Source: Bacillota bacterium
GTDB taxonomy: Bacteria; Bacillota; Sulfobacillia; JAJYWN01
Assembly (NCBI GenBank): GCA_021791495.1
Contig: JAJYWN010000058.1
Span: 48,259-87,685, forward strand
Reading direction: 5' to 3'
Length of the DNA: 39,427 nt
The notes beneath the pieces were generated by a model, which did no database searches, was not told where the DNA came from, and worked only from the letters and a program-made list of their open reading frames with translations. Shown piece by piece: positions 15,900-24,587 of this stretch. Made by a program: the position numbers and the translations under genes. Each line of letters opens with the position of its first letter. The stretch's first letter is position 1.

Positions 15900-16183
15900 G
15901 CGGCCACCTCCGTCCATAGGGTTCCGCAAGGCCGCCCGCCGAATGCCAAAAACGGTTCGGAATTCCACCGGGGGTGGGGCTCTAGCGTGGCCGACATTGC
16001 CCACTGGACTGAAAGCGGGCGGTAGGCGTCTTAGACCTTCAGGGCGACAGCCCAAACGGACCATAGCGGGGCAGTTCGCTTGGCGGCGGCTTTGGCCTTC
16101 GGGTGATAATGCAGGGCGCCCCCACCATCGTGTCGAAACCCTGGTCGAAACTGGCCAGACTTGAGCCAGGCGGAGGATGGGTA
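15900..16183. promoter_or_regulatory. Divergent intergenic region, candidate plus-strand promoter
   Basis: This 284-base spacer must hold promoters for the ABC exporter (minus) and the Cys-tail/radical SAM pair (plus). On the plus strand GATAAT (16105-16110) is a plausible -10, with TTGGCG (16080-16085) as a weak -35 at 19 bases. This assignment is tentative. No clear operator was found. Confidence 0.35.
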
Positions 16184-17929
16184 ATGAAGAACACACGCAG
16201 CTTTCGTTGGGATAGCTTCCCAAGTCAGAACACGGCCCGGATGAGGTCGTCGCCACGGCGCCGGCAAGCCGTGGCCGTGGCCCTTCTGGTCCTTTTGACC
16301 GTCGTGGCTCTCTCCGTCACCACGGCGTATGTCGCCTTCGCCTCCTTCGCCTACTCTATTCCTATCCAGCGCGACCAATTAACCATCGAAGCCGACGGCA
16401 AGGTCAAACTGCTACGCTACTTCGATTTCGCTGTGAGCGCGAACTCCACCGACAACGGAACCGAAATCTGGGCCGGACTACCGACGGCGACGACGAAGAT
16501 CACCAAGGTGACGGACAGCCAGGGTAATCCGGTGAAGTTCAGTCAGCAGACCCAGAGTGGCAATTTCATTCTCGTCCTGAAGGGCTTCCCGGCCATCAAA
16601 CCCGGCGCCAAACAGGGGTTCTACGTGCAGGGGGAAATCTCGGATTTCCTGTTCGAGGAATCGGGGGATCCGACCCGCGTCACTATCCAGTACATCCCCG
16701 GCTGGTGGAGCGCCCCTGTGGACAAACAAGAGATCATGTTCGTCATGCCGACCGGGGTAACACAGAGTGAAGTCCGGACGGGGACACGGCAATGGGATGC
16801 CGCGGGCAACGGTGACGACGGACGGTTTGGGGTCTTCTGGCGCGCGGGCCCTCTGGCGTCGAACGAGAAGGTTGCGGTCAGTGCAAGTTTTCCCGCCAGG
16901 TATGTGACCAGTTATGTCAAGAAGGCGACCCCGCCCAAGCCCGGCAACTACCAGCCTGGCCCCAATCCCGTGCGCCGGCCGTCGAATGGCGGTTTCGGGC
17001 AAGTCATGGTCGGGATCGTCATGGGACTGGTGGCCTTTGGGCTCTTGGCGTCCTTCGTCGGCGCGATTACCGGCAACGCCCGCCGTGAACCCTATAGCCG
17101 GCCGCGGTTGTCTATGGACGGGGTGGGGGCGAACAAGAGCCTATCCGTCTTCGAAGCCGCCACGCTCTTGAAGGAAGATCCGGGGCGAGTCCTGACGATG
17201 ATTCTGTTCGAGCTGTGCCGGAAGAACGCCATCCGGGTGATACAGAAGGATCCCCTTAAGGTCGAGAAGCTCCCGGCGGCGAGTAACCCCGAGGCCGCCA
17301 AGACCTTCACCGTCCCAGAGAAGAGCGTCCTGAAAGCCATCGATGACGACGGCTCGTTGGACGGAGAAGCCATGGTGGCCGTCTACCTGCGACTGGCACG
17401 GCAGGCCGTGGAGAAAACGAAACCCTATTGCCGGAAGGACACTGAGGAGTATTACCGCGCCAAGGCGGCCACCGCCTGGTCCGAGGTGGAGGCGGCGGGT
17501 ACGCCAGAAGTCAGGTTCTCCGAGTACGATAAGAACCTCCTCTGGTGCCTGCTCGATAAGGACGCCGCAGGGAAGACCGAGCGGGTGTTCCCGCGGAACG
17601 CCAGCTACCCCATCCCGGCCAACTACTGGTTCTGGCGGAACTTCATGGGCGGATACTACCTGCCGTGGCAGCCTTATTACGGCTTTCCCTTCTTCCACAC
17701 TCTGAACCGCAGCTACTACGACCTCTCCGGGCAGGTGGCGCCCGGACGGGACGGGGACATGCGTCAAGGGCGTGACGCCATCTTCAACCCCCCGCCGCCG
17801 CCCGTCACCAAGGGGGGGTGGCGAGGTGGCGGGGGCGGGTTCGCGCCACCTCCCAGCTGCGCCTGTGCCTGCGCCTGCGTGTCGTGCGCCTGCGCCTGTG
17901 CCTGCGCGGGGGGAGGGGGATGCACCTAA
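16184..17929 (+). CDS. DUF2207-like membrane protein with Cys-Ala repeat tail
   Basis: 581 residues. The N-terminus is Arg-rich, followed by a membrane helix (about 29-52), a beta-rich ectodomain (about 55-265), a second helix (about 274-298), a cytosolic domain starting SVFEAATLLKEDPGRVLTM that resembles the winged-helix part of DUF2207 proteins, an aromatic-rich stretch, a Pro/Gly linker, and finally CACACACVSCACACACA (559-575) then four Gly, Cys580 and Thr581. Nine Cys lie in the last 23 residues. By the positive-inside rule the tail should be cytosolic. ATG 16184 has GGAGGA eight bases upstream. The radical SAM gene starts on the base after its stop, which makes the tail the likely site of enzymatic modification or metal binding. 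Function unknown. Confidence 0.82.
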   Translation: MKNTRSFRWDSFPSQNTARMRSSPRRRQAVAVALLVLLTVVALSVTTAYVAFASFAYSIPIQRDQLTIEADGKVKLLRYFDFAVSANSTDNGTEIWAGLPTATTKITKVTDSQGNPVKFSQQTQSGNFILVLKGFPAIKPGAKQGFYVQGEISDFLFEESGDPTRVTIQYIPGWWSAPVDKQEIMFVMPTGVTQSEVRTGTRQWDAAGNGDDGRFGVFWRAGPLASNEKVAVSASFPARYVTSYVKKATPPKPGNYQPGPNPVRRPSNGGFGQVMVGIVMGLVAFGLLASFVGAITGNARREPYSRPRLSMDGVGANKSLSVFEAATLLKEDPGRVLTMILFELCRKNAIRVIQKDPLKVEKLPAASNPEAAKTFTVPEKSVLKAIDDDGSLDGEAMVAVYLRLARQAVEKTKPYCRKDTEEYYRAKAATAWSEVEAAGTPEVRFSEYDKNLLWCLLDKDAAGKTERVFPRNASYPIPANYWFWRNFMGGYYLPWQPYYGFPFFHTLNRSYYDLSGQVAPGRDGDMRQGRDAIFNPPPPPVTKGGWRGGGGGFAPPPSCACACACVSCACACACAGGGGCT

Positions 17930-19345
17930 ATGCCTATTCTTAGGCCCAAGCCTATGTCCGCACCCGCCACCATGCGCAGCATCTTCTTCGGCCCGTTGAA
18001 GCTGCACCTCCGCCAGGACCCCGATGGCCGGGGGACGCTGGTGATCAACGCGGCGGCCGTCCTATACCTTGACAAAGTGGCCGTCCGCTTCTTCGAGGCC
18101 TTCGCCGACGCATGGCTGGAGACCGGCGTCTGGTCAACGGGAGCAGCGGCCGTACCGGACATGCCTCCCAAGGTTATCGACCGCGTCGCCCGCACCATCG
18201 CCAAGCACTATCGGGTGACTCCGGCGCGGGCCAAGGCCGATTGGGAAGACCTCTGGGCACGCGTCCTGGCCGTGGCGGGCGGTGGCGCCTGCCCCTTCTC
18301 CGATGTCGGGGTGGGACGGGTCGATCCTTTCTCCATCGAGGCGTCGGCCCCGTACCGCGTCGACCTGGCCTTGACCTACCGCTGTAATAACAACTGCCCG
18401 CACTGCTACGCCGGCGGACCGCACCAGACGGCCGAGCTGGACACGGCCGCCTGGCAGAAGGTCATCGAGAAGCTGGCGGCTTTCCAGGTCCCGAACATCG
18501 TCTTCACGGGCGGCGAGGCCACCTTGCGACCCGACCTACCCGAACTGGTAGCCCACGCTCAGGCTCAAGGCGTGGTCACCGGGCTCATCACCAACGGACG
18601 CCTGCTCACCAGGGAGATGGTGGACCGGCTGGCCGGGGCCGGGCTGGACTACGTCCAGATCACCCTGGAGTCGGTGGACCCGGACATCCACAATGCCATG
18701 TCGGGCGGCGGATCGGCGGCGAACCGGCCCTCCGGAGAACATCGGGATGCCTGGCAGGAAACCGTGGCGGGGATAAGGAACTGCTCCGGCCGCATCTTCA
18801 CCAGCACCAACACCACCTTGACCAAGGCCAACGCCCACACGGCCCTGGACACGGCACGATTCCTCAAAGAGCTGGGCGTGGCGCGCTTCGGCATGAATGC
18901 CGTCATCCGGGCGGGGCGGGGGAAAGACACCGACGAAGCCCTTCCGGTGGAGGAAGTCGAAGCCATCCTGGAAGACGTAACCGCGTTCGCCCACGAGATG
19001 GATTTCCCGTTCCTCTGGTTCACCCCTACGTGCTATCACGTGTTGAACCCGGTGGGGCTAGGGCTCGGCGTCAAGGCCTGCTCGGCGGCATCTACCGTCC
19101 TGGCCGTGGAGCCGGACGGGGCCGTCATGCCCTGCCAGTCTTTCTTCCAGTCCCTTGGCAACGCCGTGACCGACTCCTTCGAAGCCATGTGGCAGTCGGA
19201 ACTGGCGGTTTCCTTGCGGCGGCGGCAGCGCCTGCCGGCCAAGTGCACGGGTTGCGAGGAACTGCACGTGTGCGGCGGCGGTTGCCCCCTGGAGGAAGAG
19301 GGCCTATACCAGGGCGCCGGTGAGCCCCATCTCTGCCGCACTTAG
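17930..19345 (+). CDS. Radical SAM/SPASM enzyme with PqqD-like N-terminal region
   Basis: 471 residues. Residues about 16-107 (with LVINAAAVLYLDKVAVRFF and a later helix-rich part ending in ADWEDLWARVL) resemble a PqqD-type peptide recognition element. The radical SAM core begins at LTYRCNNNCPHCY, with Cys152, Cys156 and Cys159 for the SAM cluster, followed by VFTGGEATLR. The SPASM region has Cys384, Cys402, Cys439, Cys442, Cys448, Cys452 and Cys469, enough for two auxiliary clusters. Such enzymes typically modify a ribosomal peptide or protein encoded next door, by thioether, C-C or decarboxylative chemistry. Start ATG 17930 directly abuts the previous stop; ATG 17954 is an alternative. The obvious candidate substrate is the Cys-Ala tail of the upstream protein. 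Confidence 0.88.
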   Translation: MPILRPKPMSAPATMRSIFFGPLKLHLRQDPDGRGTLVINAAAVLYLDKVAVRFFEAFADAWLETGVWSTGAAAVPDMPPKVIDRVARTIAKHYRVTPARAKADWEDLWARVLAVAGGGACPFSDVGVGRVDPFSIEASAPYRVDLALTYRCNNNCPHCYAGGPHQTAELDTAAWQKVIEKLAAFQVPNIVFTGGEATLRPDLPELVAHAQAQGVVTGLITNGRLLTREMVDRLAGAGLDYVQITLESVDPDIHNAMSGGGSAANRPSGEHRDAWQETVAGIRNCSGRIFTSTNTTLTKANAHTALDTARFLKELGVARFGMNAVIRAGRGKDTDEALPVEEVEAILEDVTAFAHEMDFPFLWFTPTCYHVLNPVGLGLGVKACSAASTVLAVEPDGAVMPCQSFFQSLGNAVTDSFEAMWQSELAVSLRRRQRLPAKCTGCEELHVCGGGCPLEEEGLYQGAGEPHLCRT

Positions 19346-19437: not shown

Positions 19438-19829
19438 CCATACCGGAGACAGGCCCTTGATCAGCGGGCAGTCCGGCAATACGGCCCTACATCGGCAACG
19501 TGGCGGTAGACTCTGTTGGACGACCTCGCGCTGCCCCGCTACGCCGGGCGTTCTTCGGTGAGGACCTGGCTTTTCGGGATCGCCCGCCGCGTCCTTCTAA
19601 ACACCTGCGGCGGAGGGAACGGGGACGCCGGCGTGACCGGGCCCTCCAAGCCGCCGCTTTGACCGGCGCGGGGGAGAGTGCCGGCCCCGAGGATCACCTG
19701 GTGAAGGCCGAGGAGGTCAAGGAACTGGACCGCGCGCTGGCCGGCCTGCCGGCGCAATACCGGGAGGCACTCGTGCAGTGGCCGCGGCCTGAAGAAACAA
19801 GACCGGGGAGAAGGGACTTCTGTTCATGA
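19438..19829 (+). pseudogene. Broken ECF sigma factor
   Basis: Fragments of one ECF sigma factor lie in two frames. Frame 1 holds an end-of-region-2 segment GRSSVRTWLFGIARRVLL (about 19546-19599). Frame 2 continues KHLRRRERGRRRDRAL and the region-4 start VKELDRALAGLPAQYREALV (to about 19777). A frameshift near 19600 joins them. A TAG at 19507-19509 interrupts the first frame upstream. After REALV the helix-turn-helix of region 4 is missing and the frame ends within about 17 unrelated residues, so the DNA-binding part appears deleted. The last codons overlap the intact anti-sigma start (ATGA), the usual sigma/anti-sigma arrangement. It cannot make a working sigma factor as it stands. Confidence 0.8.
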
Positions 19830-21058
19830 GGGATTGCGCCTTGGTGCGGGATCTACTTCCGCTGTACCTTGATGGGGAAGTGAGCGAGGAGAGCCGGCAG
19901 GCTATCTCCGCGCATCTGGAGGGGTGCGCGGACTGCCGAATGGCCCTGGCCCGGTTGCGGGCCGCGGCCGTGGCGAACCCCATTGCCTGCGACGGCTGGC
20001 GGCCGCCCTCCGCCGGAAGGACTTTCCCCGGCCGGCAGCCCGAGGAAACGCCGTCAAGAGGTGTGGCGGTCGTCGTGCGGCGGTTGCGGCGCCGGCTCCT
20101 GGCCTTGATGGCCTTGGTAGCACTGATCCCGATGGTGGTAAGTTTCTCGATTCGGCGCTATGACGACTGGAGCCGGCGGCGGGCCGTGCTACGTGAGCAG
20201 CAGGAGATGCGGATCCAGCAGAACGGCGCCTTGGAGAGCCTGGCCCGGTTGTCGCCGCCGGCCAAGGAAATGTACGAGCGTCTGGGGGTCTCTTTCACCG
20301 TCCAATCCCAACGCCTTGGAGAGAACGCACTCCGCGTGAGCTATCATTGGGGTCGACCCGGGGAGAGCGTCGACGAACCACCGACCACCGGCCCGGATAC
20401 CAGGCTTTATGCCTTTGAGGTCTGGGGCCGGAACCTCAGGCTTTCCCCGGTCGACCCGGCCACCGGGAGTGAAGTCCGCTTCAGCGGAGGACAGGGTTCG
20501 GCCGGCTGGGGACACGGTGGGGGCAACGGCTACCAGGAGTTTGTCGGGGTGCCGGCCGGCAATCTCCGTGTCAAGGCCGACATCCCGCCCGTACTGATAT
20601 ACGATACTCCGACTTCGCCGGTACGCCTGGATCTGCAGCTTTCGGGGCCGCAAGGTGAGACCGCCATCAACCGGAAACTCACGTCAAACGGTGTGGAGTT
20701 TCTGATCTCACGGATAGTGGTGCAGGGCTCCAAGGCCACCGTCGAATACCAGCAATTGACGCCGGTGGAGACCGTCGGGGTGCGCTTCTTGTCGTTCCTC
20801 CTGTATCCATCGGCACCGGCAGGAATCGGGACGAGAGCGGGGATGCCGGGTGGGGTAGGGGGAAAGGGAGATGTTCCTCATGAGGAGATACCCCTTAAGC
20901 CGGTGCCCGATCCCGCCAGACCGCAGCAGAGTTTTGACCTTGGTGACCTGGGCGACCTCGCCGCCGCGGGGGACCGCCTGACGCTGGAACTGCAGCATGT
21001 GGTCACGGCGATCCCAGGCACGACCATTCTGAGCAGCCTCGGAAGCGAAGGCAAGTAA
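19826..21058 (+). CDS. Zinc-finger anti-sigma factor, membrane-anchored
   Basis: 410 residues. The N-terminal ZAS/zf-HC2 domain has Cys4, His30, Cys34 and Cys37 (HLEGCADC) and opens in the typical way with LVRDLLPLYLDGEVS. A single membrane helix lies at about 90-109 (LLALMALVALIPMVVSFSI). The extracytoplasmic part (about 115-410) is beta-rich and of no known family to me, with a Gly-rich loop (SGGQGSAGWGHGGG). Normally it would hold its cognate ECF sigma at the membrane until a signal arrives. Here the cognate sigma gene just upstream is broken, so it is an orphan unless it binds another sigma. Start ATG 19826 overlaps the sigma remnant. Confidence 0.85.
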   Translation: MRDCALVRDLLPLYLDGEVSEESRQAISAHLEGCADCRMALARLRAAAVANPIACDGWRPPSAGRTFPGRQPEETPSRGVAVVVRRLRRRLLALMALVALIPMVVSFSIRRYDDWSRRRAVLREQQEMRIQQNGALESLARLSPPAKEMYERLGVSFTVQSQRLGENALRVSYHWGRPGESVDEPPTTGPDTRLYAFEVWGRNLRLSPVDPATGSEVRFSGGQGSAGWGHGGGNGYQEFVGVPAGNLRVKADIPPVLIYDTPTSPVRLDLQLSGPQGETAINRKLTSNGVEFLISRIVVQGSKATVEYQQLTPVETVGVRFLSFLLYPSAPAGIGTRAGMPGGVGGKGDVPHEEIPLKPVPDPARPQQSFDLGDLGDLAAAGDRLTLELQHVVTAIPGTTILSSLGSEGK

Positions 21059-21109
21059 GAAGTCGCCTTAAACGTGAGTGTGCCTGCATGGGAATGGAGA
21101 GGTTGTCAA

Positions 21110-21466
21110 GTGGACGGCGTTCAGACGTTCTATGATTCCCGAGCCGACTATGAGTGGGAGAGGCTGAACAGGCACCGTCTGGAATTTGCCTTGAATATGC
21201 GTTTCCTGAGCGAACACCTCCCGGTACCACCGGCACGAGTGCTGGACGTGGGGGGCGGTCCCGGGCGCTATTCCATAGCGCTCGCGGAGAAGGGCTACCG
21301 CGTGACCCTCCTTGACCTGTCCAAGCCCCTCTTGGAGTTCGCCCTGGGAAAAGCGGCGGAGGCAAGGGTAACGCTGGACCGCGCCATCCACGGGAACGCG
21401 CTGGCTCAGGACCCGTCCATTCACGGAGCGGCGGTCCACCTCCTGGCCGTGGCCCGGAAGGCATGA
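21110..21466 (+). CDS. Internally deleted class I SAM methyltransferase
   Basis: 118 residues. It begins FYDSRADYEWERLNRHR and contains SAM motif I, VLDVGGGPGRYSIALA, and the motif II Asp in VTLLDLS. After residue about 90 it jumps to DPSIHGAAVHLLAVARKA, which looks like the extreme C-terminus of the same family (usually about 250 residues). Motifs IV to VI and the rest of the fold are therefore missing, apparently by an in-frame internal deletion of 100 or more codons. GTG 21110 has GGAGAGG seven bases upstream; an earlier GTG (21074) lacks an SD. The stop overlaps the next start. It is unlikely to be a functional methyltransferase. Confidence 0.72.
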   Translation: MDGVQTFYDSRADYEWERLNRHRLEFALNMRFLSEHLPVPPARVLDVGGGPGRYSIALAEKGYRVTLLDLSKPLLEFALGKAAEARVTLDRAIHGNALAQDPSIHGAAVHLLAVARKA

Positions 21467-22674: not shown

Positions 22675-23730
22675 ATGGGCGACTATATACGGGAACTGAG
22701 AGCGCTGGTGGGGCACCGCCCCTTGGTCATGGCCGCCGCCGGTGTGGTGGTCCTTGATCAGGAGGGGCGGGTTCTTCTACTCCGTCGCTCGGACGACGGC
22801 GCCTGGGGCCTGCCAGGAGGCGCAATGGAACCGGGCGAGAGCGCCGAGGAGACGGCCAGCCGTGAAACCATGGAGGAGACTGGTCTGACCGTGGGCAGGC
22901 TGGATCTATTCGGGGTTTTCTCGGGGCCAGAGATGGCCCACACCTACCCCAATGGCGACCAGGTGCATATCGTGTCGGTGGTCTTCTCGGCACGCGAATG
23001 GCAAGGGAGACCTTTCCCGGCGGACGGGGAGAACTTGGAGACCCGCTTCTTCGGACCGTCGGAGCTTCCAGCAGATATCTCCGGGCCGAATCGGCCGATA
23101 TTGCGGCGGCTCATCGAGGCCGCCGGCAATCTTCCGGGCCGCGATCTGGCTCTCTCCGGTGTCAGTGCTGCGTCCAGTGACGACCGTCGGCACCCGCTCT
23201 CCCCACATGGCTATATTCGGGATTTGAGAGGTCTGGTGGGACACCGCCCTTTGACTATGACCGGTGCCTGCGTGCTCGTCGTCGACGCGCTGGACCGGGT
23301 TCTTCTTCTGCGCCGTTCCGATGAGGCCTCATGGGGCCCCCCAGGAGGCATGACCGAACCAGGTGAAAGCATCGAGGCGACGGCCCATCGTGAGACAAGC
23401 GAGGAGACGGGTCTTACCTTAGGTAGGTTGGAGTTGTTCGGGGTCTTTTCGGGGCCAGAGGTGGCACACACCTACCCGAACGGAGACCACGTCCATAACG
23501 TGACCGTGGCCTTTCGGGCCCGCGACTGGCAAGGGACACCCTTCCCAGCCGATGGAGAGAACTTAGAGGCCCGCTTCTTTGGGCCGACAGAACTTCCCGG
23601 CAACATCGCCTCCCCTGTCAGACCGATATTGCGGCGGTACGTGGAGATGGTAGGGAGGGGGCAGAGCGAGACTCGCCCAGTGGTCGACCATGGCATTCTG
23701 CGCAACCCCCAAAACGGGGGACAGCGGTGA
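22675..23730 (+). CDS. Tandem two-domain Nudix hydrolase
   Basis: 351 residues made of two similar Nudix modules, about 1-155 and 178-335. Each starts with a matching leader (YIRELRALVGHRPL and YIRDLRGLVGHRPL) and has a near-complete Nudix box GX5EX7REUXEEXGU. The first runs from GGAMEPGE to RETMEETGL and the second from GGMTEPGE to RETSEETGL. The substrate-side segment GVFSGPEMAHTYPNGDQVH is almost identical in both, so they arose by duplication. They resemble YjhB-like hydrolases of nucleoside diphosphate derivatives; the substrate is unknown. ATG 22675 is preceded by GAGGAG at a rather long distance. The stop overlaps the GTG of the next, related gene. Confidence 0.85.
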   Translation: MGDYIRELRALVGHRPLVMAAAGVVVLDQEGRVLLLRRSDDGAWGLPGGAMEPGESAEETASRETMEETGLTVGRLDLFGVFSGPEMAHTYPNGDQVHIVSVVFSAREWQGRPFPADGENLETRFFGPSELPADISGPNRPILRRLIEAAGNLPGRDLALSGVSAASSDDRRHPLSPHGYIRDLRGLVGHRPLTMTGACVLVVDALDRVLLLRRSDEASWGPPGGMTEPGESIEATAHRETSEETGLTLGRLELFGVFSGPEVAHTYPNGDHVHNVTVAFRARDWQGTPFPADGENLEARFFGPTELPGNIASPVRPILRRYVEMVGRGQSETRPVVDHGILRNPQNGGQR

Positions 23731-24587
23731 AGGACTACATCCGGGAATTGAGGGGGCTGGTGGGGCACCGCCCCTTGGTCATGGCCGGTGCGGCGGTTCT
23801 GATTCTTGATGCGGACGACCGGGTTCTTCTGGTCCGCCGGTCGGATGATCTCAAATGGGGCCTCCCAGGAGGCCTGACCGAACTGGGTGAAAGTGTCGAG
23901 GACACGGCCCGTCGTGAGGTGCACAATGTGACGGTGGTGTTCTCATCCCGCAAATGGCAAGGGGTGCCTTCTCCGGCAGATGGCGAAAGCGTAGAGACCC
24001 GCTTCTTCGCCCGGTCGGAGGTACCGGAGGATATCTCCGGCCCGGACCGGCCGATAGTGCGACAGTACGTGGAAGCTGCCGGGCGCCGCTTTTCGACTCT
24101 CGATGGCGATCCGCTCTCCAGCAGCAGTTCTGCATCCAGCAATGGCCGCGAGTACCCGGCTCATCCCTTGGTCGGGGTCGCCGCGGTGGTGATCGATAAG
24201 AGCAGGCGCATTCTCCTGGTCAAGCGCGGAAAAGAGCCGGCCAAAGGCCTCTGGAGTGTCCCAGGGGGCATGGTGAAAGCGGGGGAAACCATGCGCCAGG
24301 CCGTGCGCCGAGAGACGTTGGAAGAGACGGGTCTTCTGGTCACGCCCGCGGAGATAGCCACCGTGGCCGAGTCTATCATCCCGGACGGCGAGGGGAGAAC
24401 GAGGTTCCACTACGTCTTGGTGGATTTCTTCGCCAAACCGGTCGGCGGACCGGGCGACGGTCTTCTTGAACCGGGGGACGATGCCGATGATGTCCGGTGG
24501 ATGGACGCCGCGCGGGCTTTGGAGATGGAACTCACGGCCGGAGTGCGGGAGCTCGTCCAGCAGCTCATGAACCGTCGTATCCTCTAG
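23727..24587 (+). CDS. Two-domain Nudix protein, first domain deleted internally
   Basis: 286 residues. The first module (about 1-120) is a third copy of the preceding Nudix unit (YIRELRGLVGHRPLVMAGA, WGLPGGLTELGES), but after TARRE it jumps to VHNVTVVF. About 32 residues are missing, comprising the EExGU half of the Nudix box and the following loop, so this module should be inactive. The second module (about 147-286) is a different, complete Nudix domain with SVPGGMVKAGETMRQAV and RETLEETGL, closer to MutT or ADP-ribose pyrophosphatase-like proteins. A Ser-rich linker joins them. GTG 23727 overlaps the previous stop by four bases. With its neighbour this gives four Nudix units in tandem. Confidence 0.8.
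   Translation: MKDYIRELRGLVGHRPLVMAGAAVLILDADDRVLLVRRSDDLKWGLPGGLTELGESVEDTARREVHNVTVVFSSRKWQGVPSPADGESVETRFFARSEVPEDISGPDRPIVRQYVEAAGRRFSTLDGDPLSSSSSASSNGREYPAHPLVGVAAVVIDKSRRILLVKRGKEPAKGLWSVPGGMVKAGETMRQAVRRETLEETGLLVTPAEIATVAESIIPDGEGRTRFHYVLVDFFAKPVGGPGDGLLEPGDDADDVRWMDAARALEMELTAGVRELVQQLMNRRIL

Follow-up and report, generated by a model that had tools for sequence, protein, structure and literature searches.

Why should a membrane protein end in a run of alternating cysteine and alanine residues, and why does the gene for a radical S-adenosylmethionine (radical SAM) enzyme start on the base right after its stop codon? The question is raised by two genes in a 39,427 nt stretch of DNA from a member of the Bacillota (positions 48,259 to 87,685 of contig JAJYWN010000058.1, assembly GCA_021791495.1), the whole of which is called the window here. 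The first gene (16184..17929, + strand), defined from its open reading frame (ORF), its homologs and an AlphaFold model (mc1c58e97ee80), encodes a membrane protein of 581 aa, the presumed substrate, with the coding sequence at 16184-17926 and a TAA stop codon at 17927-17929. Its Cys-Ala tail, CACACACVSCACACACAGGGGCT (aa 559-581; 17858..17926, + strand), is the presumed modification site and is predicted to be disordered. The second gene (17930..19345, + strand), which begins with ATG 17930 in the same frame, encodes the presumed maturase, a radical SAM/SPASM protein of 471 aa with an N-terminal recognition-like domain. An earlier note on this DNA, made from the sequence, had pointed out that nine cysteines fall in the last 23 residues of the membrane protein, that the next gene starts on the base after the stop codon and that its product is a radical SAM protein with seven cysteines in the SPASM region. 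These statements agree with the translations, which give nine Cys in the tail versus three in the remaining 558 residues and, in the enzyme, the motif CNNNCPHC together with the seven Cys that lie at or beyond residue 384 (384, 402, 439, 442, 448, 452 and 469). We conclude that the two genes probably form a substrate-maturase pair, in which the enzyme modifies the cytosolic tail, most likely by introducing thioether crosslinks.

Searches that do not select for the tail

Only two of the searches, one starting from the enzyme and one from the membrane domain, avoid selection by a tail pattern. In the first, the radical SAM protein was used to query 398 genomes of the phylum (E <= 1e-38) and 18 other genomes were recovered. 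A protein with a Cys-repeat tail was found alongside in 16 of these 18 loci, i.e. in 16 of the 17 family members, and at the seventeenth (L167) the membrane protein lies beside the radical SAM gene, its tail being lost in an assembly gap. The remaining locus (L175) was rejected as a family member, as its radical SAM protein is at the edge of the cut-off, has no tail gene beside it and groups in the tree with other radical SAM proteins not associated with tails; it is considered to be unrelated. Hence, the nearest relatives of the enzyme are found beside Cys-repeat tail proteins and not with unrelated peptides, as the proposal made in the earlier note implies.

Some of the tails recovered in this way were beyond the reach of the first tail pattern, such as CACACACASSGGCT in L159-L161. 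A second repeat type, (CHSA)n ending in CVSGGAR, is carried by a related membrane protein in L172-L174, and the radical SAM partner of these tails is more divergent (33-35 % identical to the window enzyme). Two further genomes lie outside the enzyme-first set. The pair is present in G002 (same order), where the enzyme is 57 % identical, and in G074 (L177) the tail and radical SAM genes are adjacent but convergent, indicating that the link between the two is more than co-transcription. The pairing is kept when the gene order differs, the radical SAM gene being upstream, downstream or convergent.

In the second search, a profile of the membrane protein minus its tail was run against the 398 genomes. 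It matched 11 of them, ten of which were among those with the radical SAM gene (p = 4e-14, or 8e-13 when the window's own genome is left out), and no tail-less homolog was found at the threshold of this search.

Distribution of the tails

A scan for the tail alone (CACACACAGG, one genome per species) gave at least 119 DNA stretches and, when chance matches had been dropped, at least 112 in-frame C-terminal tails. The homologous tails that the earlier note thought might exist in databases are, thus, present there. The counts that follow hold among the matches listed. The tails carry at least 13 phylum labels and are from bacteria and archaea, including Asgard archaea (Bacillota, Armatimonadota, Chloroflexota, Thermoplasmatota, Heimdallarchaeota, Planctomycetota, Krumholzibacteriota, Mycoplasmatota, Actinomycetota, Myxococcota, Fibrobacterota, Methanobacteriota and Hydrogenedentota). 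With the window enzyme as query, a same-strand radical SAM gene was found at 83 of the 112 tails (70 upstream and 13 downstream), and five more were found when all family members were used as queries, bringing the total in the fetched DNA to 88 of 112. Where at least 3.2 kb upstream and at least 1.5 kb downstream of the tail were available, a radical SAM gene was adjacent in 33 of 34 cases and, in line with the earlier note, the tail is not widespread without it. For most of the tails with no visible radical SAM gene, the fetched DNA ends too close, and 22 of the 29 genomes with no same-strand radical SAM gene at the tail locus using the first query have the enzyme family in the genome.

Could the pair nevertheless be a coincidence, a variable membrane protein with a tail of low complexity happening to lie beside an unrelated radical SAM gene? 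TIGR04222 proteins do often have low-complexity Ser/Gly/Cys tails (PMC12452194). However, the same pair was recovered in three independent searches and in at least 13 phyla, which already refutes this explanation, and we give it practically no weight. An origin of the tail by chance or as a microsatellite was also considered and is ruled out by codon diversity and conservation; the codons of the window tail are mixed (TGC/TGT and GCC/GCG) and a single hexamer is used throughout in only one of the 112 tails elsewhere. The sole other DNA match in the window's own genome (contig C68), examined as a possible second CAC tail, was discarded as it sits antisense within a histidine-kinase-like gene.

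Co-variation of the tail ending and the enzyme

In a tree of the radical SAM proteins (53 rows), the seven tail labels require six changes, the smallest number possible, compared to a mean of 27.3 for shuffled labels, though this was a quick tree with several weak and long branches and single placements in it are uncertain. The (CHSA)n tails ending in CVSGGAR go with one clade of the enzyme. The tails ending in GGGR belong to a clade that includes Asgard archaea, Thermoplasmatota, Armatimonadota, Hydrogenedentota and Planctomycetota. Methanocella (L057) is also an archaeon; its tail ends in GGGGGCT, and by path it is nearest to the group that includes the window enzyme rather than to the archaeal members of the GGGR clade. 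Ala is the residue after Cys at 722 of 748 tail positions (96 %) and the Cys spacing is mostly two. Because the pairing is seen in three independent searches and persists when the gene order differs, and because the endings track the enzyme clade, the tail is the most likely substrate of the enzyme, and we hold this part of the reading with high confidence.

CxC repeats are a classic thiolate metal motif, and the tail might instead be an unmodified metallothionein-like site for Cu, Zn or iron-sulfur, with the radical SAM enzyme acting elsewhere in the pathway or on the metal site; the membrane anchor would then put a metal store at the membrane. A site of this kind has no need of a dedicated radical SAM enzyme, but the two genes are almost always found together and the endings co-vary with the enzyme clade. 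Moreover, in other lineages the spacing has shifted to (CHSA)n and the partner enzyme has diverged in step. We consider a simple metal site to be improbable.

The radical SAM enzyme

Pfam recognises Radical_SAM (2e-25) and SPASM (3.7e-10) in the window enzyme. The radical SAM CxxxCxxC motif (C152/C156/C159; 18383..18406, + strand) is invariant in 38 aligned relatives, as are C384, C402 and C452 among the cysteines of the SPASM region (C384-C452; 19079..19285, + strand). In the AlphaFold model (predicted local distance difference test score, pLDDT, 85; predicted template modelling score, pTM, 0.86), strands at residues 14-47 and helices at 49-116 precede the radical SAM barrel and the SPASM domain. 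The N-terminal part, with four strands then three helices (aa 14-116; 17969..18277, + strand; pLDDT mostly 80-97), is, in this model, like the PqqD-like recognition element (RRE) of enzymes that mature ribosomally synthesised and post-translationally modified peptides (RiPPs). Among solved structures the best matches are SuiB (Z 28.4) and SkfB (Z 28.0), whose alignments cover model residues 16-461 and 23-457, respectively, and run through the RRE, the barrel and SPASM; PqqE, CteB, the anaerobic sulfatase-maturating enzyme (anSME) and most other structures align only from about residue 136. The PqqD-like N-terminal region proposed in the earlier note is, thus, seen in the predicted structure, but at the sequence level there is no match to Pfam PqqD. 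In NCBIfam, the enzyme falls into none of the named radical SAM families, the best score being 131 bits for a family with a 500-bit cut-off, far below every radical SAM cut-off. A search for relatives with the radical SAM enzyme as single query protein found none.

What the enzyme would do to the tail is less certain. Thioether formation is favoured because the nearest structures crosslink peptides, because QhpD (see below) is a precedent and because of the Cys-Ala regularity of the tails and, if the tail is indeed the substrate, we would put thioethers only marginally ahead as the product. Alternatively, the tail may be modified without thioethers, by conversion of several Cys to formylglycine (anSME does this at one site), by epimerisation or by C-C bond formation. 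The folds of anSME and PqqE are also close to that of the enzyme model (Z about 25), the SPASM family spans many reactions, and the residues most plentiful in the tails are Cys, Ala and Gly. Against this, the best structural matches, through the RRE and SPASM, are to a C-C crosslinker (SuiB) and a sactisynthase (SkfB), and the strict retention of many of the Cys suggests that the sulfur is used rather than removed. Modification without thioethers is possible, though we think it unlikely.

The membrane protein and the location of its tail

The membrane protein includes a predicted N-terminal signal/anchor helix (aa 25-46; 16256..16321, + strand), which follows an Arg-rich N-terminus, and a transmembrane helix (aa 273-298; 17000..17077, + strand) that is followed by Arg-rich residues, the helices being taken from the model and the charges from the sequence. 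Between the helices lies a predicted extracytoplasmic beta domain (aa 57-240; 16352..16903, + strand; model and Foldseek), and after them a predicted cytosolic helical domain (aa 322-468; 17147..17587, + strand; model), partly under a sub-threshold match to TIGR04222. The AlphaFold model has a pLDDT of 78, with a disordered tail from residue 542. As Arg-rich residues precede the first helix and follow the second, the tail is placed in the cytosol, and the cytosolic location given in the earlier note fits this predicted topology. The relatives likewise have a transmembrane helix with an Arg-rich flank and, by a crude method, positive charge is heavier after the last hydrophobic segment in 52 of 96 relatives and before it in 19.

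In all lineages seen, the conserved neighbour of the radical SAM gene is the gene for a membrane protein, about 320-650 aa in length, and short homologs that have no cytosolic domain still retain the tail and the enzyme. These short homologs bear on whether the tail might be only a docking site, with the enzyme acting on the ectodomain or on the cytosolic domain. An RRE needs some ligand, and an ending that tracks the enzyme clade is what a recognition tag would look like. However, the ectodomain lies across the membrane from the enzyme, and the short homologs do without the cytosolic domain. We regard a docking role alone as very improbable.

No Pfam or NCBIfam model names the tail proteins. 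The window protein matches TIGR04222 at aa 289-390 with 21.7 bits, below the curated cut-off of 43 bits, and weak matches were found in four of 26 relatives (best 7e-5). The description 'DUF2207-like' in the earlier note was not supported at the sequence level, as DUF2207 (PF09972) has no match in the window protein and, among the 26 relatives, a single one at E 0.01. DUF2207 proteins consist of a beta domain, a helix and a Gly-rich tail, and this overall layout is shared with the window protein. In three related loci from one lineage, the tail gene is followed by TPM and LemA genes, and these neighbours leave the role of the modified tail unsettled. The fold of the predicted ectodomain (aa 57-240) matches those of ribophorin I/Ost1 and the N-terminal domain of M1 aminopeptidase (Foldseek), and the Heimdallarchaeota have members of this membrane protein family.

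Proposed mechanism

In the mechanism we propose, the membrane protein would be held by its N-terminal signal/anchor helix and second transmembrane helix, with the beta domain outside and the flexible tail in the cytosol, and the radical SAM enzyme would bind it through the RRE. The enzyme would then make a 5'-deoxyadenosyl radical, abstract hydrogens from the tail and oxidise it with the SPASM clusters. Cys sulfur would most probably become joined to a carbon of a nearby residue, Ala being the commonest neighbour, to give thioethers of the sactionine or ranthionine type. In place of a disordered tail, the membrane would then carry a rigid, partly crosslinked element on its inner face, which may have a structural, redox or metal-handling role. 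RiPP-like maturation of the tail, as put forward in the earlier note, is supported by the pairing and by the modelled recognition domain, while the exact chemistry is still hypothetical.

Several points weigh against this proposal. The pairing indicates a functional link only, and which residues change, and how, are outside its reach. The substrate would be a 581-residue membrane protein rather than a small leader-bearing peptide, making binding by the RRE putative, and the uninterrupted (CA)n tails suggest no obvious hairpin for nested crosslinks. The loci in the tail-first search were picked using a tail pattern, and the invariance of their (CA)4GG core is by construction. In G033, the eleventh genome in the membrane-domain search, the domain is at a contig end and no radical SAM gene was found. 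Finally, one tail locus (L063) is without a radical SAM gene; it was set aside as a counter-example as it has no signal peptide and no radical SAM remnant upstream and seems to be truncated or chimeric.

Neighbouring genes

Among the matches listed, 24 of the 32 loci with GGGR tails, from both archaea and bacteria, have a gene for a class I methyltransferase close to the pair (for example L042:2027-2794, L132:5171-5953 and L088), compared to 0 of the 80 other loci, and this is a possible tailoring enzyme. Nine bacterial GGGR loci (L132, L088, L087, L064, L045, L121, L018, L058 and L094) also have a second radical SAM-like gene, without CxxxCxxC, immediately upstream of the gene for the tail protein. 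Its product, found in Armatimonadota, Chloroflexota and Planctomycetota, is 21-26 % identical to the window enzyme and is possibly a non-catalytic partner. The broadest form of our proposal, about which we are evenly divided, is a system common to bacteria and archaea, with a radical SAM enzyme that would turn a cytosolic Cys-Ala tail into a crosslinked module that remains in the membrane protein, no peptide being released, and to which one clade (Asgard archaea to Planctomycetes and Chloroflexi) adds an associated methyltransferase and, in bacteria, a degenerate second radical SAM protein as partner subunit.

In the window, ATG 16184 is favoured over the upstream GTG 16103 as the start of the membrane protein gene because of a Shine-Dalgarno-like GGAGG at 16172..16176 (+ strand). 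As read from the sequence, GGGGGGAGGGGG (17908..17919, + strand), which encodes glycines of the tail, may also serve as the ribosome-binding site of the radical SAM gene. An Rfam search of the window found no RNA family. Directly 3' of the radical SAM gene (19500-21058), a short ORF like the C-terminal part of a sigma factor, with no Pfam match, overlaps one for a zf-HC2 anti-sigma-like protein. A short methyltransferase-like ORF (21074-21466; 130 aa, Methyltransf_25), which may be a broken gene, and an ORF of 300 aa with no Pfam match follow. At 22675-24587, two adjacent ORFs each include two NUDIX stretches, the first repeat in the second ORF appearing to be shortened; a single NUDIX-like gene is found beside the tail and radical SAM genes of G002 (L013:3211-3663).

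Relationship to known systems

The window pair works like an RRE-radical SAM-SPASM system but misses one defining feature, the small leader-bearing precursor. The SkfB, SuiB and CteB maturases share with it the RRE-barrel-SPASM plan and the adjacent substrate gene, and the sactipeptide cases among them also the Cys-rich target; SkfB forms bonds between Cys S and C-alpha (PMC6231123). However, their substrates are small leader peptides, whereas here it would be the tail of a two-helix membrane protein in which a leader is not recognisable. QhpD introduces several Cys-Asp/Glu thioethers into a protein subunit, QhpC, encoded in the same operon, and QhpC has a leader of 28 residues that is cleaved (PMC7876137). 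In this case, as proposed here, a radical SAM enzyme acts on a protein, but neither a Cys-Ala repeat nor a membrane anchor is described for modified QhpC.

The nearest published concept is the modification of TIGR04222 tails by multinuclear non-haem iron-dependent oxidative (MNIO, DUF692) enzymes, for which membrane proteins with low-complexity Cys-rich C-terminal tails were proposed as substrates (PMC12452194). There too, the Cys-rich tail of a membrane protein is coupled with a neighbouring oxidative peptide-modifying enzyme. However, those tails are Ser/Gly/Cys and predicted to be periplasmic, while the window tail is Cys-Ala and predicted to be cytosolic, and its neighbour is a radical SAM enzyme and not an MNIO; the MNIO landscape paper has radical SAM in its reference list only. 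No recurring MNIO-like cluster was found among the neighbours in the tail loci. In the window's own genome, an MNIO homolog is found on another contig (G000:C69:14745-15170, L189; E 3.8e-11).

The tail and radical SAM pair was not found described in the searchable open-licence PubMed Central (PMC) literature, though it may be described elsewhere, and the protein motif strings were found in no paper there, the string matches being to DNA. The pair seems to represent a protein-modification system that is widespread and undescribed. Its hosts include gut Lachnospiraceae and Oscillospiraceae, among them Gemmiger formicilis ATCC 27749 (L044), as well as methanogens and Asgard archaea. The radical SAM/SPASM maturases known so far act mainly on small peptides, and here the same plan is tied, in at least 13 phyla and in both prokaryotic domains, to the tail of a conserved membrane protein. 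Several natural tail variants, each with its cognate enzyme, are available in the family for a comparison of specificity and, if the tail is modified, it would be a covalent element on the inner side of the membrane that has so far gone unrecognised.

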